Below, in pieces: positions 4,156-28,904 of a DNA stretch of 64,000 bases (position 1 is the first letter of the stretch; every line of letters begins with the position of its first letter). The DNA is from Kordiimonadaceae bacterium (GTDB lineage Bacteria; Pseudomonadota; Alphaproteobacteria; Sphingomonadales; Kordiimonadaceae). The notes below the pieces were generated by a model. That model saw nothing but the letters and a program-made list of their open reading frames with translations, was not told where the DNA came from and made no database searches. The stretch is taken from contig JAEPQB010000001.1 in the NCBI GenBank assembly GCA_017640725.1, positions 1,736,001 to 1,800,000 of the forward strand. The letters are read 5' to 3'. Position numbers and translations under genes: made by a program.

Positions 4156-5346
4156 TTAATAGGCGTCAGGGGGCGTGATACTTCTACGTTTGGGTGTCCA
4201 GAAAGGTTTATCTGTAACCTCTGCCCTGGCCCAGTGAAGTTTCCATGCAAGCTCCTTCTGGTAGTAGATTTCCACAGAAACTTCTTTGGGTACTTGGCCG
4301 TTGATCAGCTCTATGTCCGCGTAGGCAATGGCACGCTTCAGGATCGGCGACCAGGAATGCGCCATAACGGCGCCAATGTTCTTGCCGTCTTTGCGGTCAA
4401 AAATAAACGACCCCGATGGTACTTTGTTGCCATCCAGAATGAGCTTCACCATTTTTCGCTTAAGCGGCTGTTTGTTGGCCGCAGCCAGCGCCCGTTTTCC
4501 CGTGAAGTAAGGCTTGTTCAGATTAACAAGCCAGCCCAGATCCAACTCATACGGAGTGCGGTCATAACCATCTCTGATCACTGTTTCTGCTGTGTTGAAA
4601 TCCCAGCCAGGCATAATGAACCCGGCCTCAATACGCACCATCTCCAGTGCGTCTAGGCCGATAAGGCGAATGTCATATAGGCCACGTTTTTTGACTTCGA
4701 AAATCGCGTCCCAAAGCGCCAGGGCATTTTCCGGTTCGGTCCATAATTCATAACCCAGGTCACCCGTAAAGCCAGTGCGCGATACCGTAATGTCAAAACC
4801 GTCGAGTTGTGTGTGCACAATGTCGAAAGGCTTAACGGTCTCTAGTCCCGAGATGCCAGCTTCGGTGAGCACGGAATATGACGTTGGGCCCTGGACTGAC
4901 AGCGCCGCAACATCATGAGTTTCCAGCTCAATGGAAACATCAAATCCAATGCTGGAGAGCCGCAACCAGTCTAGTTGATGATGCTGCGCGCACAGCCGGT
5001 AAACACCCTCAGAAAGATGGAACACGGTGCCATCGTCAATGACTTTGCCTTCGTCATTGCACCAAACCACGTAGGTCACCCGGCCGGGCTTCAGCTTGGA
5101 AACATCTCGCACCACAAGGCGATTGAGGAAGGCTTTGGCATCAGGCCCAGTGATCCTGTATTTTTCCATCGGCGTCAGGTCCATGACGCTGCAGGAACTA
5201 CGCACGGCAAAATACTCAGACGCAACAGTATCTACAACGCGTGGTGTTTGATATCCGTTCCAATGCGCCCAGTTCTGGGTTTGGCTTTGCGCAACAATTC
5301 GGTCGTAAAAAGGGCTGGGCGCCAGGGTTTTGGTGAAATCATGCAT
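4156..5346 (-). CDS. GcvT-like folate-dependent aminomethyltransferase/demethylase family protein
   Basis: A protein of 396 residues from ATG 5346. It shows the GcvT fold signatures VMDLTPMEKYRITGPDA, LNRLV, a central QGP segment (SVQGPTS), SRTGFTGDLGYELW and a C-terminal barrel region. GcvT relatives bind tetrahydrofolate and accept a one-carbon or aminomethyl unit; the family includes glycine cleavage T-protein, sarcosine/dimethylglycine dehydrogenase domains and DMSP demethylase. A GTG at 5352 is an alternative start overlapping the previous stop by one base. ATG 5346 has GGAGG eight bases upstream and is preferred. It follows two phytoene-dehydrogenase-like oxidoreductases in one operon, so oxidation and C1 transfer may be coupled. 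The substrate is not identifiable from sequence. Confidence 0.85.
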   Translation of the reverse strand: MHDFTKTLAPSPFYDRIVAQSQTQNWAHWNGYQTPRVVDTVASEYFAVRSSCSVMDLTPMEKYRITGPDAKAFLNRLVVRDVSKLKPGRVTYVVWCNDEGKVIDDGTVFHLSEGVYRLCAQHHQLDWLRLSSIGFDVSIELETHDVAALSVQGPTSYSVLTEAGISGLETVKPFDIVHTQLDGFDITVSRTGFTGDLGYELWTEPENALALWDAIFEVKKRGLYDIRLIGLDALEMVRIEAGFIMPGWDFNTAETVIRDGYDRTPYELDLGWLVNLNKPYFTGKRALAAANKQPLKRKMVKLILDGNKVPSGSFIFDRKDGKNIGAVMAHSWSPILKRAIAYADIELINGQVPKEVSVEIYYQKELAWKLHWARAEVTDKPFWTPKRRSITPPDAY

Positions 5347-5351
5347 AGCCA

Positions 5352-6887
5352 CTACCTCCGCCCTTTGAGGTCAGCGAGAATTTGTTTTGCCGCGTTCCTG
5401 CCGGGCAGGCCGGTTATGTCGCCACCCGGGTGGGCAGCTGCACCACAAAGGTAAAGTCCCGGAACCGGAGTGCCATACTGGCCGGCACCTGGCACAGGCC
5501 GCATCATAAAGGACTGGTCAATCGCCATTTCCCCGTGGTGCCAGTGCCCGCCTTCGATGTGGAAGGATTTTTCGATATCTGTTGGTGACCAGAGTTCACG
5601 GCACGCAACCTGAGACGCAATACCGGGTGCGTACAATGATAATATGTCTAGGATTTTGTCTTCAAAAGCTGCACGGCCCGCCTCCCAGCCTTGCTTCAGG
5701 TTATAGGGCGCGAACATAGCGTTGGCCGACAACAGGCTTTTACCATTGTCCAGGGTGGTCAAATGAATGTCCAGCACTGGGGCCTCGGAAAACTCGCCGT
5801 ATTTGCAATGGTTAAAGGCCCGTTCCACATACATCAAAGTCGGGGCCACCAGGAACCGCCCACTTGACGCGTTTTGCGAAAGGTTCGTGAATTTCGGCGT
5901 GGCATCAAAAGTGGCAAAAAACTTTGCCACATCACCGTTGGTGCGAGTTTTGGTGACGCGGTGCGTGAACATGCCATCTAGATTGCGCGCACCTACCAGT
6001 TTCAGGAAAGTTGTTTTTGCATCGGCATTGGAGACGATGATATCGGCATTCAGGATATCGCCATTTTCAAGCATAACCCCAGTTGGCTTATCATTGTCCA
6101 TCACGACAGAATGCACAGTAGTGCTGGTTTTTATTTCAACGCCAGCAGATTTGGCAGCTTCCGCCAGCTGACCTGCGAGGTTGTCAACTTGGGCAACCTG
6201 GCGACTGGCGGTTGAGCCAGTTTCCTGGAACAGGCGCATCAGCATCGGGAGCACAGTTGTGGGTGTTTTCGGGCCAGCGTGATTGCCAAACAAGGCATCG
6301 GCAGCAATGCCTCCCTTCAACAATTCAGAACTGAAACGTTCTTCCAGCACGTCAAACAGGTTCATGCCTGCTACGCGAAGAAACTCGTTCAGGCCTGCTT
6401 TGCCCAACCCGAACCGGAGGTCCAGGCCAAGCTTCGCAAACACGGTTTTGTCACTCCAGTCGAAGTGCTTGAGCCGGGGCGGCGTGTTGAGCATCAAAGA
6501 CTTCAATGCCTTGCCATAACTCAGGTATTCTTCACGGAAAGCTCTGTATTCCGAGATATCCCTTGCAGAAACACCGGCGCCTGAAACCTTGTCGCCCATC
6601 AGCGTGATATGTTCGCCGCTAGTGCTCAAAAGGGTTGTTGGCAACGGTTCGCAAGGTGTGCTTTGCAACTTCAGCTCACGCGCTATTTTGTCATTCAGGG
6701 AATGGTGTGTCTGGATCAGACCCGGCACCGCTGTCCCGTCCCGCAGTGTTTGTTTTGACAGGCCACCGCCCAAAGTTTCACGCGCTTCCAAAAGGGTCGT
6801 TTTAACGCCAGAGCTCGCCAGATAAGTGGCGCAAACCAATCCATTGTGTCCGCCACCAATAACAATTGCAGAGAGGTTTTTAGTCAT
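5352..6887 (-). CDS. FAD-dependent oxidoreductase, phytoene-dehydrogenase/PYROXD2-like
   Basis: A protein of 511 residues. The N-terminal FAD motif is LSAIVIGGGHNGLVCATYLA with a downstream glycine-rich LGGGLSK loop. The C-terminal FAD-contact segment is GLYLCGAAAHPGGDITGLPGRNAA. This is the phytoene-desaturase-like NAD(P)/FAD oxidoreductase architecture, full length. A TTG at 6893 is possible as start, but ATG 6887 with GGAGG nine bases upstream is better. The gene overlaps the end of its upstream relative (6880-8505) by 8 bases, so the two are translationally coupled and perhaps act as a pair. It is followed within 5 bases by the GcvT-like gene. There is no carotenoid gene nearby, so carotenoid chemistry is unlikely and an amine or methylamine substrate is an inference only. 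Confidence 0.88.
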   Translation of the reverse strand: MTKNLSAIVIGGGHNGLVCATYLASSGVKTTLLEARETLGGGLSKQTLRDGTAVPGLIQTHHSLNDKIARELKLQSTPCEPLPTTLLSTSGEHITLMGDKVSGAGVSARDISEYRAFREEYLSYGKALKSLMLNTPPRLKHFDWSDKTVFAKLGLDLRFGLGKAGLNEFLRVAGMNLFDVLEERFSSELLKGGIAADALFGNHAGPKTPTTVLPMLMRLFQETGSTASRQVAQVDNLAGQLAEAAKSAGVEIKTSTTVHSVVMDNDKPTGVMLENGDILNADIIVSNADAKTTFLKLVGARNLDGMFTHRVTKTRTNGDVAKFFATFDATPKFTNLSQNASSGRFLVAPTLMYVERAFNHCKYGEFSEAPVLDIHLTTLDNGKSLLSANAMFAPYNLKQGWEAGRAAFEDKILDILSLYAPGIASQVACRELWSPTDIEKSFHIEGGHWHHGEMAIDQSFMMRPVPGAGQYGTPVPGLYLCGAAAHPGGDITGLPGRNAAKQILADLKGRR

Positions 6888-8505
6888 CGCCAAAATCCTC
6901 CGGTGTTGTGTCAGTGCGTTTCAGGTCACGCAATATTTCACGCGCGGCGTTGGCGCCCGGCGCCCCCATCACACCACCTCCTGGATGGTTTGATGAGCTG
7001 CACATATACATGTTCCGCACCGGCCCGCGGTACTGCGCATACCCCGGGAATGGACGATTGAATAAAAGCTGATCAAGGGTGAGTTCGCCCTGGAAGATAT
7101 TGCCACCTGTCAGGCCCACCTCTTCTTCCAGTTCTTTTGGTGTGCGCACTTCCGCATGCACAATCATATCCTTAAAGCCGGGGCTGTAGTCATTGATCTG
7201 ATCTATGACTGTTTTACCAAACGCGTCTTTCTTTTCCGGGGTCCAGCCGCCTTCAGCTTCCACCGGGCAATACTGAACGAAAACCGACATCATGTGCTTG
7301 CCAGGGGGCGCGACGGTTGGGTCATATTGTGATGGGATGAGGGTATCGGTGTAAGGGTCCGCTGACCAGCGGTCCTCTTTCCAGTCATCGTAAGCACGTT
7401 CCAGGCGTTCAAGCGTGTCTGTGAAGTGCATATGCCCTAGCGTCAGGGGTGAACCTTCAGGCAGGGTTGGAAATTTCGGCATGCCATCCAGCGCAATATT
7501 GAGTTTGCCCGATGATCCCCGGATTTTGAAATTCCTGGCCCGCGTCAGCACATCTGGCGGCACGTCTTTTTCGTTCATCACTTTGAGGAACGTGCGTTGC
7601 GCGTCCAGGTTGGAGACAACCTTCTTGGCTTTGATAACCTCGCCGCTCGCTAGTGTCACGCCAGTTGCTGTTCTGCCTGATACATTGATTTCTGCCACCT
7701 CGGCGCCTGATCGGATTTCACCGCCATGGGCTTGAAAGGCCGACGCAAGGGCACCAGACACAGCTCCCATGCCACCCCTGGCAAAGCCCCATGATCCAAC
7801 GTTGCCATCGACATCGCCCATCGCATGATGCAGCAACACATAGGCCGTGCCGGGGGAGTAAACGCCCAGGCCAGTGCCGATAATGCTGCCACCCGAAAAG
7901 TGCGCCAGCAAAAGGTCGTTCTCAAAATATTCTTCCAGATACTCAGCGATAGACATCGTAAAGAAGCGGATGAATTGATAGATCTGGTCTTCGCTCAATT
8001 CATGGAATTTTTTGAGAAGGAACGCGAACTCCATGAAGTCCCGTGGTTTGAATGATGTTGGATCGGGTGGGGTCCGCAGCAGCATGCCACGGATCAAACG
8101 GCACCATTTCATCAGGTCTGCGTCGAACCGGATTGAGGCATCCGCATCGCGCTGCGAATGGCGAGCGATTTCCCGGCGACGGATTTCCGAGTGGTGATAA
8201 CTGCCAAAATAGTCACCGGACTGAGAGAAGGTGACGCTGCCCTGCAGGGGAACAATCTCCAGTCCGTGGCGTCCCAGGTCCAAGGCCTGATAGATTTCCG
8301 GCCGGAACAAACTGCAGACATAGCTGCAGTTTGAATAAAACCAACCGGGCTCAAGCTCTCGCGAAACAGTTGCGCCGCCGATATAGTCATTTTTTTCCAA
8401 CACAAGTACATCGAGGCCCGACTTCGCCAGAAAAGCAGCGTTGGTCAGCCCGTTGTGCCCTGCACCAATAACCACAACATCATAGGTTTTATTCGAATTG
8501 CCCAT
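6880..8505 (-). CDS. FAD-dependent oxidoreductase, phytoene-dehydrogenase/PYROXD2-like
   Basis: A protein of 541 residues beginning MGNSNKTYDVVVIGAGHNGL, with an FAD-binding GAGHNG motif, an LEKNDYIGGATVSREL segment and the C-terminal NMYMCSSSNHPGGGVMGAPGANAA FAD contact. It is the closest local relative of the fragment at 1-669: both have SREL/SEEF after GGA, and YSNCSYVCSLFRPE matches that fragment's NSIASYVVSLLRPE. It starts two bases after the GNAT gene stop and overlaps the next oxidoreductase by 8 bases, so it is firmly inside the leftward operon. Two adjacent, non-identical members suggest a heteromeric or sequential oxidation step. The substrate is unknown. Confidence 0.88.
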   Translation of the reverse strand: MGNSNKTYDVVVIGAGHNGLTNAAFLAKSGLDVLVLEKNDYIGGATVSRELEPGWFYSNCSYVCSLFRPEIYQALDLGRHGLEIVPLQGSVTFSQSGDYFGSYHHSEIRRREIARHSQRDADASIRFDADLMKWCRLIRGMLLRTPPDPTSFKPRDFMEFAFLLKKFHELSEDQIYQFIRFFTMSIAEYLEEYFENDLLLAHFSGGSIIGTGLGVYSPGTAYVLLHHAMGDVDGNVGSWGFARGGMGAVSGALASAFQAHGGEIRSGAEVAEINVSGRTATGVTLASGEVIKAKKVVSNLDAQRTFLKVMNEKDVPPDVLTRARNFKIRGSSGKLNIALDGMPKFPTLPEGSPLTLGHMHFTDTLERLERAYDDWKEDRWSADPYTDTLIPSQYDPTVAPPGKHMMSVFVQYCPVEAEGGWTPEKKDAFGKTVIDQINDYSPGFKDMIVHAEVRTPKELEEEVGLTGGNIFQGELTLDQLLFNRPFPGYAQYRGPVRNMYMCSSSNHPGGGVMGAPGANAAREILRDLKRTDTTPEDFGDD

Positions 8506-19804: not shown

Positions 19805-21616
19805 TTGGCATTGGGGGCGAAGTTGGTTTCAAGTCACTATGACGCATCTGCGTGTGGTCAGGTGCTGCACAAAGATGTGCTTATTCTAAAAATATTACGC
19901 GTGGCGGTTTGTCTCGTTCTGTTGACTGTGGCCCAACAAGTCAGTGCTGATCAGACACTGCTTTTGTCGGATACTCCAGAGCAAATAAAAGTTACTTCTT
20001 ATCTCGGTTTGCTCGAAGATGCAGAACACAAATATGCCAGCGAAAATATTACTGATCAGCAGTTTAACGATCTTTTTGCGCCGTTAGCTGACGGCACATC
20101 GAACTATGGATTCTCGGATTCTGCCTGGTGGGTGCGTCTTAAGCTCAAGAATGACGGCGACAGTGACGTCAGTGCGACCCTCAGGCTCGATTATCCGTTG
20201 CTGGACCATGTTGATGTGTGGGTGTTGTCAGCAGGTACGGTAAAAAACTCCTGGCAAACCGGCAATCGCCGCACATTTCTAACCCGGGCTGTTCCGCATC
20301 GGGATTTCCTGTTTCCGCTCACGTTATCTGAGCAGGAAGAGCAGACCGTCTATTTGAGGGTTAAAACCAACGGCCCCGTCAACATCGGCCTCACATTGTA
20401 TGGTGAACAGGCACTTCAGCTCACAACCCAACTTGAGTACCTTGTTCTAGGGGCTTACTTCGGCGGGTTTTTGTTGCTCGCATTATGCCTTTTGCTGCTC
20501 TACTTGATGGATCTGCAAACCGCGTTTCTGTACTATCTGGCCTATATTGTCAGCTATGCCGGATACATGCTGACCTTCAATGGATTAGCGTCTCAATACA
20601 TATGGCCCCATGCCCCTGAAATTGGTCAGATCGGTCGCCCGATACTTTTGACACTGGCCATTCTTTTTTTACTTCAATTTTCTCGGTCACTTTTGGGCAT
20701 TGGCAGCATTTCAAAAGTACTTTTCAGGTGTGTATCCGCGCTTCAGGGCATACTGGTGCTGATGCTGCTCGGCATTCCTTTGTTTGGCTATGGCTCACTT
20801 GTCATGCCATTTGCTGCGATTCTATTGATCGCCCTGGTTTTGGTTCTCGCCATGGGGGTAACTGCTCACCGGGCCGGTGAAGCAGCAGCAAAATACTATT
20901 TGCTAGCCTGGTCGGTATTTCTTGGTGGCTTGCTGATATATTTGCTGAAGGTGTTTGGATGGCTTCCCCATAATTTTGTTACGCATTATGGCTTCCAGAT
21001 TGGCTCATTCTTTGAGTTTATTTTCCTGTCCGGGGCGCTAGTTGTGCGTGTGCGGGAACTCAGGCAGCAGTCTCATGCAGATGGGCTAACGGGTCTCGCC
21101 AACCGCCGCTGTTTTGATGAACAGCTGACGGAAGAATTTTTGATGAGCGCTCGCCCAGAATCTGAATTGTCGTTGCTTGTGATCGATGTGGATCATTTCA
21201 AACTGTTCAACGACACCCATGGTCATACATTGGGTGACAAAGTGCTGAAGGAACTCGGCAAGCTGTTCAAAAAACAGATAAGGCGACCGGGTCAAGCCTT
21301 TCGCTATGGCGGTGAGGAGTTTGTCGTTTTATTGCCGCGTACGGGCCAGAAAGAAGCACTCATTCTTGCCGAACGCCTGAGGCAGTGCGCTCAATCCGAT
21401 TTGCCGTATGACAATGTAACCATCAGCGTTGGTGCGGTTAGTCTGCAACAGGGCGGTTTTGAGTGCGCTGACCAGTTTTTTGAGGCTGGTGACCGTGCGC
21501 TATACCGGGCCAAAAACGAGGGCAGAAACAGGGTCGCAATGCATTCTAGCACCCTTGGTCCAGCTGAAGAGATTTTGGAAAAGCAAAATCTGCGCCCAAG
21601 CTTGGAGAGTGGATAA
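19805..21616 (+). CDS. 7TM-DISM diguanylate cyclase (GGDEF)
   Basis: About 600 residues. The layout is a signal peptide (hydrophobic ILRVAVCLVLLTVAQQVSA), an extracytoplasmic DISMED2-like sensor domain (about 55-200, with FSDSAWWVRLKLKN), seven hydrophobic segments (about 205-410) and a C-terminal GGDEF domain. The domain begins DGLTGLANRRCFDE and carries an intact active-site GGEEF at residues 502-506 of this frame, so it should make c-di-GMP. The open frame begins with TTG 19805; the real start may be TTG 19823, GTG 19862 or GTG 19877, which all keep the signal peptide. The gene precedes the patatin gene by only 4 bases, an unusual partner for a diguanylate cyclase. Confidence 0.87.
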   Translation: MALGAKLVSSHYDASACGQVLHKDVLILKILRVAVCLVLLTVAQQVSADQTLLLSDTPEQIKVTSYLGLLEDAEHKYASENITDQQFNDLFAPLADGTSNYGFSDSAWWVRLKLKNDGDSDVSATLRLDYPLLDHVDVWVLSAGTVKNSWQTGNRRTFLTRAVPHRDFLFPLTLSEQEEQTVYLRVKTNGPVNIGLTLYGEQALQLTTQLEYLVLGAYFGGFLLLALCLLLLYLMDLQTAFLYYLAYIVSYAGYMLTFNGLASQYIWPHAPEIGQIGRPILLTLAILFLLQFSRSLLGIGSISKVLFRCVSALQGILVLMLLGIPLFGYGSLVMPFAAILLIALVLVLAMGVTAHRAGEAAAKYYLLAWSVFLGGLLIYLLKVFGWLPHNFVTHYGFQIGSFFEFIFLSGALVVRVRELRQQSHADGLTGLANRRCFDEQLTEEFLMSARPESELSLLVIDVDHFKLFNDTHGHTLGDKVLKELGKLFKKQIRRPGQAFRYGGEEFVVLLPRTGQKEALILAERLRQCAQSDLPYDNVTISVGAVSLQQGGFECADQFFEAGDRALYRAKNEGRNRVAMHSSTLGPAEEILEKQNLRPSLESG

Positions 21617-21620
21617 AGCA

Positions 21621-22517
21621 ATGCCAGACAAGCAGTATGAAAATCTGGTTTTTGAAGGCGGTGGTGTGCGAGGTGTTGCTTATGCTGGCGCGTTGAAGGT
21701 TTTGGAGGAACGAGACATCCTGCCCGGGATAAGCCGAGTGGCGGGGTCCTCCGCAGGCGCGTTTGTGGCCTTGCTTTTAAGCCTTGGATATTCTTCTGAC
21801 GAACTGTTAGAGGCGTTGCATTCCCTGCGGTTCAAGACCCTTGAAGACAAGCCAAACCCAGTTCGAATCGCTACTCACTATGGCCTCTATAAGGGCGAGG
21901 TTTTGTATAACTGGATAGCCGATCAAGTTACCAAAAAAGACCTATCATTGGGTGTGACGTTTGCAGAACTTGATAAATTGGGCGGGCGAAAACTCCATGT
22001 ATTTGCGACTGATTTGTCCGTACGAAATGTGAGAGAGTTTTCGGCTACAACGACACCGGACGCATCTGTGGTTGGTGCCGTGCGGGCCTCCATGTCGATC
22101 CCGTTAATGTATGCCGCGTGGCAGTTTCCAAATGGCATTCCAGACACGCACTATTATGTGGATGGGGGCACCGTGTATAATTATCCGATCAATGCTTTTG
22201 ATGATGTTGATGGTGCTTGCAAAAAAACACTGGGGTTTTGCTTCGAGAAATTGGCGGATAACGCTTCAGCCAATGTGCATGACATCTCCAATCTGTTTGA
22301 TTTTGCCAAAGGTCTGTTTTCAACCTTGCTGAGTGCACAAACCATCGATTTCGAGCAAAATCCGGAACAGCTTCTACGCAGTGTGAGGATCGATGACTTG
22401 GGCTTTAAGGCAACTGACCTTGAGCTTTCAGATCAGGCCTGTGAAAGCCTCTATCAGTCAGGTTATCTGGCAACGCGTCAATTCCTCGAGAAAAGGGCAG
22501 GAAATGCCAGTGCATGA
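21621..22517 (+). CDS. Patatin-like phospholipase
   Basis: 298 residues from ATG 21621; the longer open frame to 21429 overlaps the cyclase gene. The patatin signatures are complete: the glycine-rich oxyanion segment FEGGGVRGVAYAGAL, the nucleophile elbow GSSAG (Ser44), and the dyad aspartate in YYVDGGTVYNYPINAF (DGG motif). Patatins use a Ser-Asp dyad to release fatty acids from phospholipids or other acyl esters. There is no signal peptide, so it acts in the cytoplasm or at the inner membrane. It lies between the diguanylate cyclase (4 bases) and the P450 (78 bases). Released unsaturated fatty acids could feed the redox enzymes downstream, an inference from gene order. Confidence 0.9.
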   Translation: MPDKQYENLVFEGGGVRGVAYAGALKVLEERDILPGISRVAGSSAGAFVALLLSLGYSSDELLEALHSLRFKTLEDKPNPVRIATHYGLYKGEVLYNWIADQVTKKDLSLGVTFAELDKLGGRKLHVFATDLSVRNVREFSATTTPDASVVGAVRASMSIPLMYAAWQFPNGIPDTHYYVDGGTVYNYPINAFDDVDGACKKTLGFCFEKLADNASANVHDISNLFDFAKGLFSTLLSAQTIDFEQNPEQLLRSVRIDDLGFKATDLELSDQACESLYQSGYLATRQFLEKRAGNASA

Positions 22518-22595
22518 ATGCTTAAAATCTGGATTAAATCAACCTAAAATAGTAGTGTGCGCAAAAGACATTTGGGCACTCGAGGGGTACAGCAT

Positions 22596-23834
22596 ATGAA
22601 TTCGCCAACTGGTAACGGCCAAGAATCGAGCTCAGACTCCAGTCGACCCGGAGCCATCGCGCAATTCTTCATTACATTACTAGTTAGGCGCATAATTCCC
22701 TTTGTTTTTGGCATTTTGCGCCGAATAGCGCCTGTATTTCGCTTTCCCTTTACAAACACAGTGATCGTTACGAGCTTTGATTTGGTGCAGGAAGTGTTCC
22801 AGCGGCACAATGATTTTCCCGTGCCCTATCAACGTCAAGTTGATCATCTGGGATGGGAGCCCACCTTTTTGCTGGCGATGAAAGACACGCCCGATTATTG
22901 GCAAACGGTGGATCAGGTCAAAGCGCTTTGGCGCACGGAGGATCTGGATTTTGTCCGGCAAATTGCGCAGGAAGTCAGTGAGACAAAACTACGCGAGGGT
23001 GGTGGTCAACTGGATGCCATTCAAGACTTGATGGTGCCGGTAACTGAAGCTGTGATTGGCCGATATTATGGTGTTCCGATAGCTGAAGACGTAAGGCCGC
23101 AGTTTTTCAACAGTTGCATGCATGTAGCGGGGTTTTTGTTCGGGGCTCAAACAGACGCTCCTAAAGTCGTGGCGCGCGCGCAGAAAGCTATTGCGCTGGT
23201 TTGGCAGGTTATTGATAAAGCCATCGCCGAAGCTCGCAAAAACCCTTTACCAGATTCGACCGTTATCGGGCGTTGCCATGCCATGAATGTGACGGACGAT
23301 AAGCATTTGCGGTCCTATCTAATGGGTATGATCATGGGCTACCTGCCTACCAATACTTTGGCCAATGGTCATGCCCTTGATGTGATTTTGAGCAACCCCA
23401 ATGCTAACGCGATTGGCTGTGAAGCGGCGAAAAAGGGTGACCGTGATCTCGTGCTCAAAGTGGTTCATGAGGCACTTCGCATAAGTTATATTCTGCCAGG
23501 CCTGTGGCGCGAGCTTCCGGACGCCCAGAAACTGGGCATTGGCTCTGATAAAGAATATGAAATTGATAAAGGGCGCCTCGTCTATATCTCTGCCATGTCT
23601 GCCATGCTGGACAAAAGACGCGTCGATCAGCCCAAAAAGTTCGACCCTGAGCGCTCTCCAGATGTCTATATGATTTATGGATACCAGTTTCACTATTGCA
23701 TTGGGGCCGCCATTGCAGACGTGATGATGAAAGAGATTTTCACAGCATTGATGCGCCGTGGTCCAAAGCCGCTAGGCAAAATGAAGTACAACGGCAACTT
23801 CCCCTGGAATTACCATATCGCTTACAAAGATTGA
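22596..23834 (+). CDS. Divergent cytochrome P450
   Basis: 412 residues from ATG 22596, with GAGGGG about 8 bases upstream. The heme-thiolate loop is YGYQFHYCIGAA with Cys368, the K-helix ExxR is EALR in VVHEALRIS, and there is a membrane-like hydrophobic N-terminal stretch (about 22-45). Two features are odd. The I-helix reads GMIMGYLPTNTLANGH in place of the usual A-G-x-D/E-T, so the acid-alcohol pair for O2 activation is missing. The heme loop has Gln where a Gly is usual. Such changes occur in P450s that rearrange peroxides (CYP74 type) or use peroxide as oxidant. A DyP peroxidase and a patatin in the same operon fit lipid-peroxide chemistry. No ferredoxin gene is nearby. Confidence 0.82.
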   Translation: MNSPTGNGQESSSDSSRPGAIAQFFITLLVRRIIPFVFGILRRIAPVFRFPFTNTVIVTSFDLVQEVFQRHNDFPVPYQRQVDHLGWEPTFLLAMKDTPDYWQTVDQVKALWRTEDLDFVRQIAQEVSETKLREGGGQLDAIQDLMVPVTEAVIGRYYGVPIAEDVRPQFFNSCMHVAGFLFGAQTDAPKVVARAQKAIALVWQVIDKAIAEARKNPLPDSTVIGRCHAMNVTDDKHLRSYLMGMIMGYLPTNTLANGHALDVILSNPNANAIGCEAAKKGDRDLVLKVVHEALRISYILPGLWRELPDAQKLGIGSDKEYEIDKGRLVYISAMSAMLDKRRVDQPKKFDPERSPDVYMIYGYQFHYCIGAAIADVMMKEIFTALMRRGPKPLGKMKYNGNFPWNYHIAYKD

Positions 23835-23843
23835 GGAAATTCG

Positions 23844-24497
23844 ATGTCCCTGATTCCGATACATTTTGCAGGGAAGGCCAACCCCTTGACCGTGATCACT
23901 CCGGTTAAGCGTGGATGGCGGCGATGGCTTACCATCGCAATTTTGTTTGTGTTCAAACATTTGCCTCTTGGTGTGGTGAAACAGCTGGCCTTCATTCATT
24001 TTGCCCGGTGGATTCTGGTTCGTGGCGACAAGCTGCCTCGCCTTGACCCTAACCAACCAGAAGAAAACTGGCCCTATGATCTTTATGTGTTTACCACCAA
24101 TTTCAATGGATCATGGGATCAATACATTGATGCCTTTGGGCGGATAAAGTCCGTCAGCAAAGGGCTGAACATGCTGTGGTACACAAGCGCCGGTTTTCCC
24201 GGGCCTTGGCCGATGCGACTTTTCAAGCGCTACATCCACTATTTCGAGCAGCAACAGGAACTCTATTACAATGCATATCCAGGCGCGACCGTCAGGGACA
24301 TTGATGCCGCGCTGAAACTGAGCACCGCCTTCCAGGAATTTCTGGAACAAACAGAAAACGATATGGACGATGAGGAGTTTGCCCGCAGGCACCGCCAGTT
24401 TGTGAACGAAATTGCCCCGTTTCTGGGTCAAAGTGGCCAGCCAGCTGAGCAAACCGCCCATGCACACCGAAGCCTCCCGCAGGAGTTTCGACCATGA
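23844..24497 (+). CDS. Protein of unknown function, paralogue of next gene
   Basis: 217 residues, not recognised with certainty. The N-terminus holds a hydrophobic stretch (RRWLTIAILFVFKHLPLG, about 25-42) that may be a membrane anchor. The core LYVFTTNFNGSWDQYIDAF and GFPGPWPMRLFKRYIHYF is followed by YYNAYPGATVRDI and an MDDEEF segment. The same blocks appear in the same order in the next protein (LLFAVNIDGRIEDFLDCL, FFRRYIRQCFYGG, YAGFPAGVDEI, MDDAEL), so the two are paralogues. The N-F-x-G-x-W-D-x-Y pattern suggests a ferredoxin-like alpha/beta fold, a guess. The gene starts 9 bases after the P450 and overlaps the next by 4 bases. Confidence 0.8.
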   Translation: MSLIPIHFAGKANPLTVITPVKRGWRRWLTIAILFVFKHLPLGVVKQLAFIHFARWILVRGDKLPRLDPNQPEENWPYDLYVFTTNFNGSWDQYIDAFGRIKSVSKGLNMLWYTSAGFPGPWPMRLFKRYIHYFEQQQELYYNAYPGATVRDIDAALKLSTAFQEFLEQTENDMDDEEFARRHRQFVNEIAPFLGQSGQPAEQTAHAHRSLPQEFRP

Positions 24498-25069
24498 GGC
24501 AGCACAGTTTTGTAACAGCATTATCCCCGATTGAATATCAGGCCCACGACCCAGACAACCGAATATCGTCAATTCGGCAAACGCTTATTGACCATGAACA
24601 GGTGAACAGCCCCTTTGCAGATTGCCCGATGGTGCACATGTCGCGCCTTCAAATTATCGATCATTTGCCGCCGCCAATGGGGGATGTTTCGGGCGTGAAA
24701 CTAAAAACAAAATACTTGTTGTTTGCGGTTAATATTGATGGTCGCATCGAGGATTTTCTGGACTGCCTGTACCGAACAAATACGCAATTTGTTCATGATG
24801 TTTGGGGGCGCTGCATTGGGTACCCGGCTTACAAGGGTGCTGTATTTTTCAGGCGCTATATTCGCCAATGCTTTTACGGCGGATCCCTGGGCTATGCCGG
24901 GTTTCCTGCAGGTGTTGATGAGATTCTTCTCGCCTTGGCCCAGAAAACAGAGATAGCGGAATGGATCGCCACTCACCAAGGCATGGATGACGCCGAACTC
25001 AATGCTGCCTGGCGCCGTGACCGTGCAAGATATGCGAACCTCAGACCACCCAAGCCAGGAAGCTTTTAA
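24494..25069 (+). CDS. Protein of unknown function, paralogue of preceding gene
   Basis: 191 residues, no family recognised. It has no hydrophobic N-terminus, unlike its neighbour. Shared blocks are TKYLLFAVNIDGRIEDFLDCL, FRRYIRQCFYGG, GYAGFPAGVDEILLAL and GMDDAELNAAW. The N-terminal part (FVTALSPIEYQAHD... MVHMSRLQIIDHLPPPMGD) is distinct and includes a possible HMSRLQIID strand. It is translationally coupled on both sides (ATGA with the gene before, TAATG with the DyP gene after), which argues that the protein works with the peroxidase. It may form a heteromer with its paralogue. Confidence 0.8.
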   Translation: MRQHSFVTALSPIEYQAHDPDNRISSIRQTLIDHEQVNSPFADCPMVHMSRLQIIDHLPPPMGDVSGVKLKTKYLLFAVNIDGRIEDFLDCLYRTNTQFVHDVWGRCIGYPAYKGAVFFRRYIRQCFYGGSLGYAGFPAGVDEILLALAQKTEIAEWIATHQGMDDAELNAAWRRDRARYANLRPPKPGSF

Positions 25070-26481
25070 TGTCTTACTCTTCCTCTGTTAACACCAAAGA
25101 TGTGCAAGCCCTGTTTCGAGGGTTTGGGCTTAAGTGGCCGCACGCACGCTTCTTCTATTGTCGGTATGCGAACGGCGAGGCCGGGCGGCGACTGCTGCAG
25201 TTCCTCGGTCCACTCACTTCATATCACGACCTATCAAATTCGCCGGACGTTTGCGTAAACGCGGCTTTCACGGTTGGTGGTTTAGCGGCACTGAACTTGG
25301 ACAATGACATCATCAATAGCCTGCCCGATGATTTTCGCGATGGAATGCGTAGCCGCGCCAACATCAATGGAGACTCTGGTGAGAGTGATCCGTGCCAATG
25401 GGAAGATATCTGGCGTGAGGACAAAGTCCATATTTGGGTGGGCGCTTACGCTCGCGAACAGGCAAGCCTCGAAGGCTGGTCGGAGAAGCTATTGCGTTTT
25501 CTAGATGCTGACAGCGACCTTTCCTGTTTGGGCAGCCAGGACGCAGGGCGTATCGTGTCCAGCCCCGAAACGCCCATTTATATTGAAGATGCAGAAACAC
25601 AGCCTCAGGAGTCCGTTGTGCTTGAACACTTCGGCTTTCGGGACGGTGTCAGTAACCCGCCAATCAGTGGCTTGGTCGAAAAGCTGGTTAACGGGGCTGG
25701 GATACTGGATGCCAATGGCAACTGGCATGCTTACCCTCCTGGGGAGTTTCTGCTTGGTCACATAGATACAAACGGCGAAATCCCAGTTGCGCCTAAGCCC
25801 GCCGCTTTTGCCCAAAACGGGTCGTTTATGGTGCTACGGAAACTGGACCAGGATGTTGATCTGTTTAGAGAGTATCTTGAAGAACAGGGTGCCAAGCTGT
25901 CTATGGGACCAGATGAGCTGGCCGCCAGAATGGTCGGCCGGCGCCGCGATGGCACGCCGCTCATGCCTTCAGAAGATTTAAACGATTTTCGATTTTCTGG
26001 TGACCCCGAAGGCCGTGTTTGCCCCATGGGCTCGCATATCCGGCGTACCAATCCACGGGACAGTTTTGGCGCTGATTTTGGTTCCTTGCTTGTGGATCGT
26101 CACCGCATTCTTCGGCGCGCGATCACATATGGAAACATCGTGCCCCGCGGCAAAAAACAGGTGGATGTCAATGGCCCATCTGGGCAGGGGTTAATGTTCA
26201 TAGTGCTCAACGCCAGTATCTCGCGTCAGTTTGAATTTGTGCAGCAGCAGTGGGTCAACTATGGCAACGAGTTTGACCAGGGCAACGATGCTGACCCCAT
26301 CATTGGTACCCGCACTGGCGGCGACCAGATGGTGATACCGGGCAACGAACAAGAGGGCCGTGATGCTGCAATTTGTACCGAGTTAAAGCAATTTGTGCGG
26401 TGTCGTGGTGGTGACTATTTCTTTTTGCCGGGGATTGGTGCGTTTGAAGGCTTGGCCGACAACAGCCAGGGCTGGCAATAG
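25069..26481 (+). CDS. DyP-type heme peroxidase
   Basis: 470 residues, in the longer DyP class. The distal GxxDG motif is FGFRDGVSNP with Asp192, the proximal heme ligand is His323 in CPMGSHIRRTNPRD, and the LVGRRRDGTPL-like segment (ARMVGRRRDGTPLMP) and GSFMVLRKLDQDV are also family signatures. DyP enzymes reduce hydrogen peroxide or organic hydroperoxides and oxidise dyes, phenolics or other donors. There is no Tat signal, so it is cytoplasmic, unlike EfeB. The start codon overlaps the preceding stop by one base. It closes the cyclase-patatin-P450 operon. Confidence 0.92.
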   Translation: MSYSSSVNTKDVQALFRGFGLKWPHARFFYCRYANGEAGRRLLQFLGPLTSYHDLSNSPDVCVNAAFTVGGLAALNLDNDIINSLPDDFRDGMRSRANINGDSGESDPCQWEDIWREDKVHIWVGAYAREQASLEGWSEKLLRFLDADSDLSCLGSQDAGRIVSSPETPIYIEDAETQPQESVVLEHFGFRDGVSNPPISGLVEKLVNGAGILDANGNWHAYPPGEFLLGHIDTNGEIPVAPKPAAFAQNGSFMVLRKLDQDVDLFREYLEEQGAKLSMGPDELAARMVGRRRDGTPLMPSEDLNDFRFSGDPEGRVCPMGSHIRRTNPRDSFGADFGSLLVDRHRILRRAITYGNIVPRGKKQVDVNGPSGQGLMFIVLNASISRQFEFVQQQWVNYGNEFDQGNDADPIIGTRTGGDQMVIPGNEQEGRDAAICTELKQFVRCRGGDYFFLPGIGAFEGLADNSQGWQ

Positions 26482-26597: not shown

Positions 26598-27254
26598 GTG
26601 TTTTATGACCGTCTGGTCGCCGAAGTTCAACCTGAACGAGAGGCCTTTTTGGCCCTCCCGGTCATTCAGGCCGGCATGCGCGGAGAATTCACCAAAGAAG
26701 CCTATATTGGCTACCTGAGTGAGGCTTTTCATCATGTCAGGCACACGGTGCCACTCATTGAAATGGTTCGGTCGCGCCTTGGGCCGGGCCGCGCCTCGCT
26801 GATTGAAGCCCTTTCCAATTTTAGTCTGGAGAGGAAAGGATACGAAAACTGGATTTTGCAGGACATCAAAAACTCGGGCGGGGACTCTGACAAGGTCCGC
26901 GACGGCGAGCCATCTGAAGCGACGGAAGAATTGCTGGCTTATATGTATGACCAGGTCACGCGCCACGATCCAATCGGTATTTTTGGCATGTTGTACATCG
27001 TTGAAATAACCGGCTCAAAGCTTGCCAGTCAGACCGTAAAACAATTTATGGCCACACTCGGGCTGCCGCGAAAATGCTTCAGCTATCTGCTCACCCACAG
27101 TTCTGAAGACATGGACAACCCAGATTATTTCAAAACCCTGATGGCTCAGATAACTGACCCGGCAGAACAAGACTGCATCCTCCGGGTCGCCAAACATGTT
27201 TACGGCCTCTATGGGCGAATTTTTCAAAGCATCGGCAAATCGGCCGGCATCTGA
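26598..27254 (+). CDS. TenA/heme-oxygenase-like fold protein, diiron oxidase candidate
   Basis: 218 residues, all-helical by composition. The first metal-ligand region appears as SEAFHHVRHTVPLIEM (Glu42, His45 or His49), a second around FSLERKGYENW (Glu78), then IVEITGS (Glu136) and a C-terminal HSSEDMDNPDYF (His167, Asp171). This spread of Glu/His and the HxxxD motif fits the heme-oxygenase-like diiron oxidase superfamily and also plain TenA or PqqC-like proteins. The start is GTG 26598 with AAGGGG upstream. It lies 116 bases after the DyP gene on the same strand. If it is a diiron oxidase it could act on fatty acids or amines; no substrate is shown by sequence. Confidence 0.75.
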   Translation: MFYDRLVAEVQPEREAFLALPVIQAGMRGEFTKEAYIGYLSEAFHHVRHTVPLIEMVRSRLGPGRASLIEALSNFSLERKGYENWILQDIKNSGGDSDKVRDGEPSEATEELLAYMYDQVTRHDPIGIFGMLYIVEITGSKLASQTVKQFMATLGLPRKCFSYLLTHSSEDMDNPDYFKTLMAQITDPAEQDCILRVAKHVYGLYGRIFQSIGKSAGI

Positions 27255-27373
27255 GAGTATCAAATTCCATTGATATCGCCGAGTTCAGCTCACTGCTGTG
27301 CGCAGGTTGGCGTTGGTGGCTGTTGCTTGTCCCTATTGCGTCAATTATTGATATTTTCGGACACTTGACCTAG

Positions 27374-28423
27374 TTGTTGCGGGTGGAACAGGACTTAATC
27401 AGACCACCAACTAGCTTGAAAGCGATTTGTGAAACAGCTTCGGAGATGGGCTGTGACCCTGCCACCTGTTTGCACAACACTGGCATCACCCTCGATGAGT
27501 TGAACCAACCAAACCTGAGGCTCACGCTCGGACAGGAGGTTCTCGCAATAGAAAATCTCGTGGGGGCATTCCCTGGGCAAGTGGGCCTGGGTGTTTCCGT
27601 TGCCAAGCGTATGCATCTAGGGTCGTTTGGCATTTATGGGTTTGCCATATTAACCAGCCCAACGGCTCGCGCAGCGGCGGAAACGGCCGTCCGTTTTGCA
27701 AACCTCTCCTATGTCATAGCGGACATGACCCTGATCGAGGATGGCCCGACCGCCAGATTTGAATTTGACTTGTCCAAATTGCCTGAGGCTATCCACTGGT
27801 TCATTCTTGAGCGGCACTCCTTCGTGGCGATGACTTTCTTCCGCGACTTTCTACAAGAAACCCAGTTCTCAGATTTTGCTATCAAATCAACACACCCGGA
27901 CCAAAATCATGCGTCGTCTCTTGCCAGCTTGCTGAAGCTGCCCGTTGAAGCGAATTCAAATAAAGACTCATTGGTGTTTCCAGCTGCGATGCTCGACCAG
28001 CCTCTGCCCAAATCTGATCCTGTGACACAGCAATATTGCATAGACCAATGTAAGGAATTGCTGGCTCAAACCATTGGAACTACCGCAAACTGGTCGCTAA
28101 AAGTCCGCAATCATCTCGTGGAACTTATTGGACAAAACCCCAGAATTGGCGATGTCGCCGCTCATTTTAATGTGACTGAACGAACCCTGCGTCGGCGTCT
28201 GCAAGAAGAAGGAACGACTTATAGAAAGCTGTCTGCGCAAGCCCGCCTAACTCTGGCGCGGCAACTGCTTGAGCGTGCCGGGTTGACGGTTGAGGCAGTT
28301 TCCTGGCGTGTGGGGTATTCGGAACCGGCCGCATTTGTGCGGGCCTTTGTGCAAGAATTTGGCACCACACCAGGATCGGTTCGCGCAAATGTCCGAAAAC
28401 ATCAAGAAATTGTCCGTATCTGA
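27374..28423 (+). CDS. AraC family transcriptional regulator
   Basis: About 349 residues. The N-terminal 180-200 residues resemble the arabinose-binding-like sensor domain of OruR/ArgR-type AraC regulators. The C-terminal pair of helix-turn-helix motifs is clear: IGDVAAHFNVTERTLRRRLQ and, after ARQLLERAGLTVEAVSWRVGYSEPAAFVRAF (read in parts), the second HTH with the G-Y-S-E-P-A-A-F motif. Start codons TTG 27374, TTG 27377 or GTG 27383 are all possible and none has a clear ribosome site. It follows the diiron-candidate gene by 119 bases and precedes DoxX by 67. The target is unknown; the upstream redox operon or DoxX are the nearest candidates. Confidence 0.88.
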   Translation: MLRVEQDLIRPPTSLKAICETASEMGCDPATCLHNTGITLDELNQPNLRLTLGQEVLAIENLVGAFPGQVGLGVSVAKRMHLGSFGIYGFAILTSPTARAAAETAVRFANLSYVIADMTLIEDGPTARFEFDLSKLPEAIHWFILERHSFVAMTFFRDFLQETQFSDFAIKSTHPDQNHASSLASLLKLPVEANSNKDSLVFPAAMLDQPLPKSDPVTQQYCIDQCKELLAQTIGTTANWSLKVRNHLVELIGQNPRIGDVAAHFNVTERTLRRRLQEEGTTYRKLSAQARLTLARQLLERAGLTVEAVSWRVGYSEPAAFVRAFVQEFGTTPGSVRANVRKHQEIVRI

Positions 28424-28490
28424 CATTCAGGGCAAGTCACTTTCCGGCAACCATAAATGGAATTGCCTAGTTTCGACGCGGGAGTGAAAA

Positions 28491-28904
28491 ATGCAATTGG
28501 AAAAAAAGCTGCCAAACAATCCTAACCTGGCTGTTTTGGCGCGTTTAATGTTCACATCTTTATTCCTCATTTCTGGTGTCACACATTTTACTGATATCGC
28601 CTATTATGTTTCGCTGATGCACGAAGACATCCCATTTCCTGTGTTCTGGACCTTGACTTCCGGCATCGTGGAATTGGCAGGGGCGCTGATGGTTTTGTTT
28701 AACTGGCGCCCACGGCTTGGTGGTTGGTTGCTAGTCGCATTCCTGGTGCCAGTAACCCTGTTGGTCCATGGGTATCAAATGATTGTTGCAACAGAAGAAG
28801 CCGTACGCGTGATGCAACAGGCGCACTTCCTGAAAGGTATTTCCCTGACGGGTGCAGCGCTGCTTATTACGCAAATTGGTGTCAGTTCTAGCCCGACAAA
28901 ATAG
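28491..28904 (+). CDS. DoxX family membrane protein
   Basis: 137 residues with four hydrophobic segments (about 14-32, 48-68, 74-93, 110-128). The N-terminal LARLMFTSLFLISGVTHFTD matches the DoxX pattern (R-L-x-x-x-x-x-F-x-x-x-G-x-x-K/H). DoxX-family proteins are small inner-membrane proteins of uncertain function, some linked to redox or thiosulfate metabolism. The start is ATG 28491 with GGGAG about 8 bases upstream. It converges with the NmrA-like gene on the other strand; the 98-base gap holds nothing obvious. Confidence 0.82.
   Translation: MQLEKKLPNNPNLAVLARLMFTSLFLISGVTHFTDIAYYVSLMHEDIPFPVFWTLTSGIVELAGALMVLFNWRPRLGGWLLVAFLVPVTLLVHGYQMIVATEEAVRVMQQAHFLKGISLTGAALLITQIGVSSSPTK

Follow-up and report, generated by a model that had tools for sequence, protein, structure and literature searches.

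What function could join a diguanylate cyclase, a patatin, an atypical cytochrome P450, two unnamed proteins (here called U1 and U2) and a DyP-type peroxidase in one operon? The question is raised by positions 19805-26481 of a 64,000-nucleotide stretch of a Kordiimonadaceae bacterium genome (contig JAEPQB010000001.1, positions 1,736,001 to 1,800,000; hereafter the window), the nearest named relatives of which are Kordiimonas marina and K. gwangyangensis. We found that U1, U2, DyP and the unusual P450 firmly constitute the core of a module that recurs in several phyla and is not local to Kordiimonas. The module itself is established and its chemistry we infer from sequence: a pair of haem enzymes handling fatty-acid peroxides is the most economical reading, with a role in aromatic or other specialised metabolism as its main rival.

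U1, U2, DyP and P450 form a recurrent gene module

Genome contigs were searched with U1, which yielded 152 relatives, and the best 80 loci were retained; this set was chosen via U1, so U was found in all 80 by construction (iterated profiles). DyP was present in 74 of the 80 loci, and the remaining six end no more than 519 bp from the U genes. A P450 was detected in 50 of the 80, one of them partial (L045), and in 49 of the 69 loci that could be judged; 25 DyP loci carried no full P450, five of these ending within 603 bp. We further surveyed an unselected class sample of 385 alphaproteobacterial genomes. U occurred in ten of them, with DyP adjoining on the same strand in all ten and P450 adjoining in eight. 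The co-occurrence check suggested by the initial annotation did not refute it: every U1 locus on a sufficiently long contig had DyP, and P450 usually accompanies the two families.

The DyP profile matched 15 genomes of the class sample, including five without a U match; among these five, G263 has a U domain by another profile, three are weak or partial, and G187 carries a DyP-P450 fusion in which the P450 match is weak. Seen from the P450 side, a scan of 275 genomes gave the subfamily (E up to 1e-60) in four, each of which has U with the P450 beside it. This 275-genome sample overlaps that of 385 genomes, at most six candidates were scored per genome, and some more divergent P450s of the module, for example in G281 and G358 (E about 1e-44), fall short of the E 1e-60 cut. 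By record labels, the U1 loci belong to Alpha-, Beta- and Gammaproteobacteria, a planctomycete, and metagenome-assembled genomes (MAGs) labelled cyanobacterium and Verrucomicrobia, the contig of the Verrucomicrobia-labelled MAG stopping after U2. An acidobacterial plasmid also carries U1-U2-DyP. The module is a defined and testable gene set in many genera, and it gives the two unnamed protein families a context.

Parts of the module were also found fused. One annotated protein of Pararhizobium qamdonense (1423 aa) combines a P450, a U-like and a DyP domain, with weak support (domain E 0.079) for another U-like stretch, and a 976-aa protein of Rhizobium leguminosarum (L093) joins U and DyP. Single open reading frames (ORFs) join DyP and P450 in the planctomycete L024, in L099 and in L094, where the P450 match is weak; U and DyP in L095 and L098; and U1 and U2 in L063 and L089. 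These fusions are strong evidence that the parts function jointly, and the single-chain P450-U-DyP proteins allow direct tests of the chemistry and of the role of U. As a separate observation, the DyP of G648 (L157, 3411-8221) lies between U2 and P450 in three overlapping ORF pieces, reflecting either decay or sequence error.

The module P450 lacks the I-helix acid and DyP keeps its catalytic residues

The window P450 (22596-23834, + strand; PF00067, 40.0 bits against a cut-off of 22.8) has an N-terminal hydrophobic helix by hydropathy. In ordinary P450s the I-helix acid serves proton delivery for the activation of O2. Residue counts over the module P450s (49 loci plus the window, the partial L045 excluded) showed Pro at this position in 48, Ala in two and an acid in none, while the neighbouring Thr is kept in 46 of 50 and the ExxR motif and the haem Cys are invariant (50/50). 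In the window, the Pro-Thr codons at the site of the acid-alcohol pair occupy 23346-23351 (+ strand), in agreement with the non-canonical I-helix first noted there. Among 20 control P450s, taken from the other P450s of U genomes, 18 have D/E-T, one G-T and one Q-E, and none has Pro; these controls are not independent, since 11 come from G358 and four are near-identical orthologues of the Kordiimonas group. The acid-alcohol pair of O2-dependent monooxygenases is therefore present in most controls and incomplete in every module P450. In the P450 of the window and in those of the five close relatives, Gln or His replaces the usual Gly four residues before the Cys.

The DyP gene (25069-26481, + strand) encodes the Asp, proximal His and distal Arg that have roles in DyP catalysis, and all three were kept in 75 of 75 sequences. 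Its profile scores were 27.6 for PF20628, the Dyp_perox_C model (cut-off 20), 23.3 for PF21105 (cut-off 27.5) and 100.1 for TIGR01413 (cut-off 100.5), and no export signal was apparent by eye in the window protein. The alignments used for P450 and DyP (A3 and A4) held the window plus 30 of 49 P450s and the window plus 26 of 74 DyPs, respectively.

U1 and U2 are paralogues with a shared HxxR motif

U1 (23844-24497, + strand) is an uncharacterised conserved protein that carries HxxR and NFNGxWDQYIDAF motifs in alignment A1 (the window plus 36 of 76 loci thinned for identity, with L026, L063, L087 and L089 excluded beforehand). U2 (24494-25069, + strand), aligned in A2 (the window plus 43 of 53 listed candidates), is a paralogue of U1 (hhalign E 1.3e-15) and shares the HxxR motif, whose His and Arg are each present in 36 of 37 U1 and 43 of 44 U2 sequences. 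That the two are paralogues had been proposed at the outset, as had their lack of a known family, and neither gave a convincing Pfam, NCBIfam or PDB match. The window proteins have no Pfam family and NCBIfam matches only above E 0.04; the 37 U1 homologues gave stray weak matches to Pfam (best E 0.0058) and the 44 U2 homologues a few stray weak ones to NCBIfam (best E 2.2e-4), both far from a common family. In the PDB sequence search the U1 profile had no match, and the best match of the U2 profile was at E 0.15.

Hydropathy predicted at least one membrane helix in 36 of 44 U2 proteins, and two helices in most homologues; no helix was predicted in the U2 of the window, L010, L012, L013, L014, L019, L024 and L072. 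AlphaFold models of the U proteins (mean pLDDT 75 and 88) tentatively suggest a ferredoxin-like fold. The idea that U1 or U2 is a degenerate half of DyP was rejected, as hhalign of U against DyP showed no relation.

Alpha-dioxygenase and catalase-like genes occur beside U1-U2-DyP

In three genomes it is a homologue of fatty-acid alpha-dioxygenase, not a P450, that divergently adjoins U1-U2-DyP. L071 and L038 each encode such a homologue (1008 or 970 aa) in the gene divergent from U1. The best PDB match of the L071 protein is 4kvj, a plant alpha-dioxygenase (E 2.6e-62 over several stretches), with lactoperoxidase at 1.2e-5; the L038 protein is 56% identical to it, and both keep the YRxH motif (as SVYRLH), which is catalytic in alpha-dioxygenases. 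When 295 genomes of L071's family were searched, a third adjacent homologue was found in G741 (L153), starting 262 bp from U1. G741 holds two copies of the module, one with a P450 and the other with an alpha-dioxygenase. With this neighbour in three genomes, the lipid-peroxide idea gains its first independent support.

Five genomes of L071's family have a clear alpha-dioxygenase, and U was found in G537 (the seed), G741 (adjacent), and G648 and G793 (on other contigs), compared with five of 65 control genomes of the family, one of them weakly. The ratio is 4/5 with the seed included (p 6e-4) and 3/4 with it excluded (Fisher p 0.004), with the reservation that one family does not supply independent genomes. 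Of the 385 genomes of the class sample, the sole one with a clear alpha-dioxygenase, G243, has U, the gene lying on another contig stretch without U. Weak matches (best E >1e-7) were not counted, namely those of G109, G153, G176, G232, G482, G490, G626, G775 and G844.

Catalase-like genes adjoin DyP in L038 and L101, and U in L091. Other neighbours were recorded as well. An endonuclease/exonuclease/phosphatase-family gene directly follows DyP, in the place that P450 has elsewhere, in the Rhizobium-type loci L093 (9942-11138) and L096 (6560-7999), and a phosphoesterase-family gene lies upstream of U1 in L075. The P450 of L089 is followed (5207-8501) by an animal haem peroxidase and then by an unassigned protein of 549 aa; since the PDB matches of this peroxidase were lactoperoxidase and eosinophil peroxidase alone, it was not counted as a dioxygenase.

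Patatin and GGDEF genes are accessory to the Kordiimonas-type version

In the window, all six ORFs were found on the + strand, in one direction and with the gaps first described (+4, +78, +9, -4 and -1; patatin ATG at 21621, P450 ATG at 22596). The first gene (19805-21616, + strand) encodes a 7TMR-DISM receptor with a diguanylate cyclase domain (PF07696, PF07695 and PF00990; GGEEF at nt 21308). Its start codon is uncertain, TTG at 19805 or a later codon, and the RxxD inhibitory site upstream of GGEEF is presumably missing, as judged by eye. The second gene (21621-22517, + strand) encodes a patatin-like phospholipase with GSSAG and DGG motifs (PF01734, E 1.7e-32). Pfam thus confirmed the gene identities of the initial annotation, P450 and DyP included, the P450 scoring above its Pfam cut-off and the DyP above that of Dyp_perox_C. 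A scan of the operon gave promoters below those of shuffled sequences and terminators within one standard deviation of them, and so speaks neither for nor against a single transcript. All gene calls came from home-made longest-ORF scripts, by which neighbours may have been missed or shadow ORFs called.

The patatin gene precedes the P450 in all five close relatives (L010-L014), of which L014 is a Lysobacteraceae MAG. A GGDEF gene is found upstream in L012 and L013, downstream in L014 and as a C-terminal piece in L010, and none was found in L011; it is of full length in three of the five. Beyond these relatives, the patatin profile matched one locus (L027, on the opposite strand and several kb off), the GGDEF query matched L021 and L076, both on the opposite strand, and L080 has an EAL-GGDEF protein downstream. 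Patatin and GGDEF are accessory genes of the Kordiimonas-type version and regular only there. We therefore rejected the six-gene unit as a widely conserved system, and the initial annotation's inclusion of patatin and diguanylate cyclase as parts of the system does not hold outside this version.

Class III nucleotide cyclase genes lie near the module in L034, L038, L040, L069, L071, L094, L095, L101 and L153, and one also adjoins the Pararhizobium fusion gene. Where domains were scanned they are of the cyclase-AAA-TPR type, except in L101, which has Cache domains. These neighbours form a pattern, not a demonstration, that suggests a second-messenger link of the module.

Comparison with known oxylipin and peroxide enzymes

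In fungi, linoleate diol, epoxy alcohol and allene oxide synthases are dioxygenase-P450 fusions, which join a haem peroxidase-type enzyme to a self-sufficient P450, and hydroperoxide-converting P450s without an electron chain are described as well, both according to PMC13049297. Like these fusions, DyP and P450 are joined in some of our genomes; unlike them, the peroxidase is DyP in the fusions examined and not of the animal haem peroxidase type. We know of no U1 or U2 counterpart in the fungal fusions. Plant alpha-dioxygenase is represented by the homologues of 970-1008 aa described above, in three genomes.

CYP152 enzymes, peroxide-using bacterial P450s, lack the I-helix acid and have Arg-Pro in the helix. 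The module P450 resembles them in lacking the acid and having Pro, but no Arg stands before this Pro in the aligned block. Of the 586 PDB matches of alignment A3, the best 60 include no protein named as CYP74, a family of hydroperoxide-converting P450s. The module DyP keeps the Asp, proximal His and Arg of DyP-type peroxidases, with a C-terminal Pfam domain above cut-off, but differs from other members in being encoded with U1 and U2 and in falling just under the TIGR01413 cut-off. The catalase-like genes, which stand at the P450 place or beside U, recall catalase-related hydroperoxide lyases and allene oxide synthases, although their proteins have distant catalase similarity only, below the Pfam cut-off.

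A possible lipid-peroxide function and its alternatives

We consider that the chances of a haem module for fatty-acid (hydro)peroxides, usually associated with the membrane, come close to even. In this model, U1 and U2 would form a ferredoxin-like scaffold that holds DyP beside a second haem enzyme and that would be anchored in the membrane through U2 in most genomes. The partner, usually the P450 and elsewhere the alpha-dioxygenase or catalase-like protein, would make or rearrange fatty-acid peroxides; the P450 would be expected to use peroxide and not O2 plus an electron-transfer chain, and DyP would reduce the hydroperoxide or take it as co-oxidant. The product would be oxylipin-type or a 2-hydroxy fatty acid. 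In Kordiimonas, the fatty acid would be freed by the patatin, with the GGDEF receptor coupling the pathway to c-di-GMP. The lipid-peroxide pathway of the initial annotation is supported in this part, by the alpha-dioxygenase neighbours in three genomes, the catalase-like genes at three loci and the loss of the P450 acid in all 50 sequences, and is not supported in so far as patatin and cyclase fall outside the conserved unit. Its gating by c-di-GMP is no more than a suggestion, although class III nucleotide cyclases recur near other versions. A bolder proposal, which we regard as distinctly less probable, is that U1-U2 is a new family that holds two haem enzymes and passes a lipid hydroperoxide between them. 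On this view the module would be an oxylipin system of bacteria that evolved independently and is widespread, in which the first enzyme can be exchanged (P450, alpha-dioxygenase or catalase-like) and which has second-messenger links. The biological roles of prokaryotic oxylipins are largely unidentified, as stated in PMC5155153. No description of such a cluster was found in the open-access literature, in the titles and abstract starts among the matches listed, a search that leaves out most subscription papers. Should the lipid reading be wrong, a conserved haem module would still have been found, one for which we met no described function.

Several observations weigh against the lipid-peroxide reading. 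No P450 lies within reach in 20 of the 69 judgeable loci, nor beside U in G346 and G414 of the class sample, and some P450s without the I-helix acid still use O2. The U models resemble dimeric ferredoxin-like proteins weakly (Foldseek best E 0.017). The alpha-dioxygenase is adjacent in only three genomes: when 78 U-locus genomes (the 80 loci less L010 and L015) were searched, three had a long alpha-dioxygenase and two of these had it beside U, and in G541 it lies on a different contig without U there. G655 has an alpha-dioxygenase and no U, and adding three weak alpha-dioxygenase matches without U lowers the association in L071's family to 3/7 versus 5/65 (p 0.026). No alpha-dioxygenase was found in the window's own genome or beside the P450 version of the module, and a lipoxygenase search of that genome was uninformative, since its control gave no match anywhere. 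On the catalase-like proteins, the Pfam catalase model gave E 0.021 and 5.3e-4 for two, under its cut-off, and no match at 1e-3 for the third. Finally, the neighbours are mixed, with tyrosinase and Exo_endo_phos genes in L096 and GST, acyl-CoA ligase and transporter genes elsewhere.

Such neighbours bear on the main rival, in which the substrate would be an aromatic or another specialised metabolite and lipids would play no part, DyP generating radicals, the P450 coupling or hydroxylating and U1-U2 serving as scaffold. Aromatic compounds are the best-known substrates of DyP enzymes, and this preference, the tyrosinase upstream in L096 and the GST and CMD genes near some copies would fit. However, none of the 25 commonest neighbour families matched more than 6 proteins in a sample of 94 (92 of 141 listed plus two added), or more than 4 in a sample of 79 (from 118 listed), and the alpha-dioxygenase, patatin and catalase-like neighbours suggest fatty acids, so we judge this rival unlikely, if still a serious one. 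Defence against peroxide or haem stress, with DyP clearing peroxides and P450 and U assisting or sensing haem, appears improbable. It would agree with the intact DyP residues in all sequences and with the katG gene and Fur regulator that lie about 4 kb downstream of the Granulicella DyP, but the occurrence is patchy (10/385 genomes), and detoxification leaves both the P450-DyP fusion and the exchange of P450 for alpha-dioxygenase unexplained.

Two further alternatives concern the accessory genes. The patatin and GGDEF genes of Kordiimonas may be co-transcribed bystanders of a functional unit made up of P450-U1-U2-DyP alone, as would suit their absence as regular partners beyond L010-L014. We think this rather unlikely, though less so than the aromatic rival, because the patatin is present in all five close relatives, including the Lysobacteraceae MAG that keeps GGDEF on the other side. 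A nucleotide-signalled immunity system of cyclase and effector was prompted by the class III cyclases beside several copies, that of L038 matching the Pycsar models of PADLOC (E 3.5e-26), and by the window patatin, which matches PADLOC phospholipase effector models (E 7e-10). These matches reflect broad families, the NCBIfam CBASS lipase model scoring 24.7 bits against a cut-off of 200, and U1, U2, P450, DyP, GGDEF and two scanned fusions have no PADLOC match. CBASS and Pycsar loci pair a cyclase with an effector; of seven window proteins scanned, the patatin alone matches PADLOC, and we hold an immunity function to be very improbable.

Genes downstream of the operon

A possible seventh gene (26598-27254, + strand), not mentioned in the initial annotation, encodes a haem-oxygenase-like protein of the TENA/CADD type (PF14518, E 1.3e-12; PDB 3dde, E 3.3e-12). 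It starts 116 bp past DyP on the same strand, and a homologue lies beside DyP in L010 alone among the five close relatives. The region 26598-28904 continues on this strand from the haem-oxygenase-like gene to an AraC-type regulator, whose best NCBIfam match, QhpR, is below the QhpR cut-off, and then to a DoxX gene.

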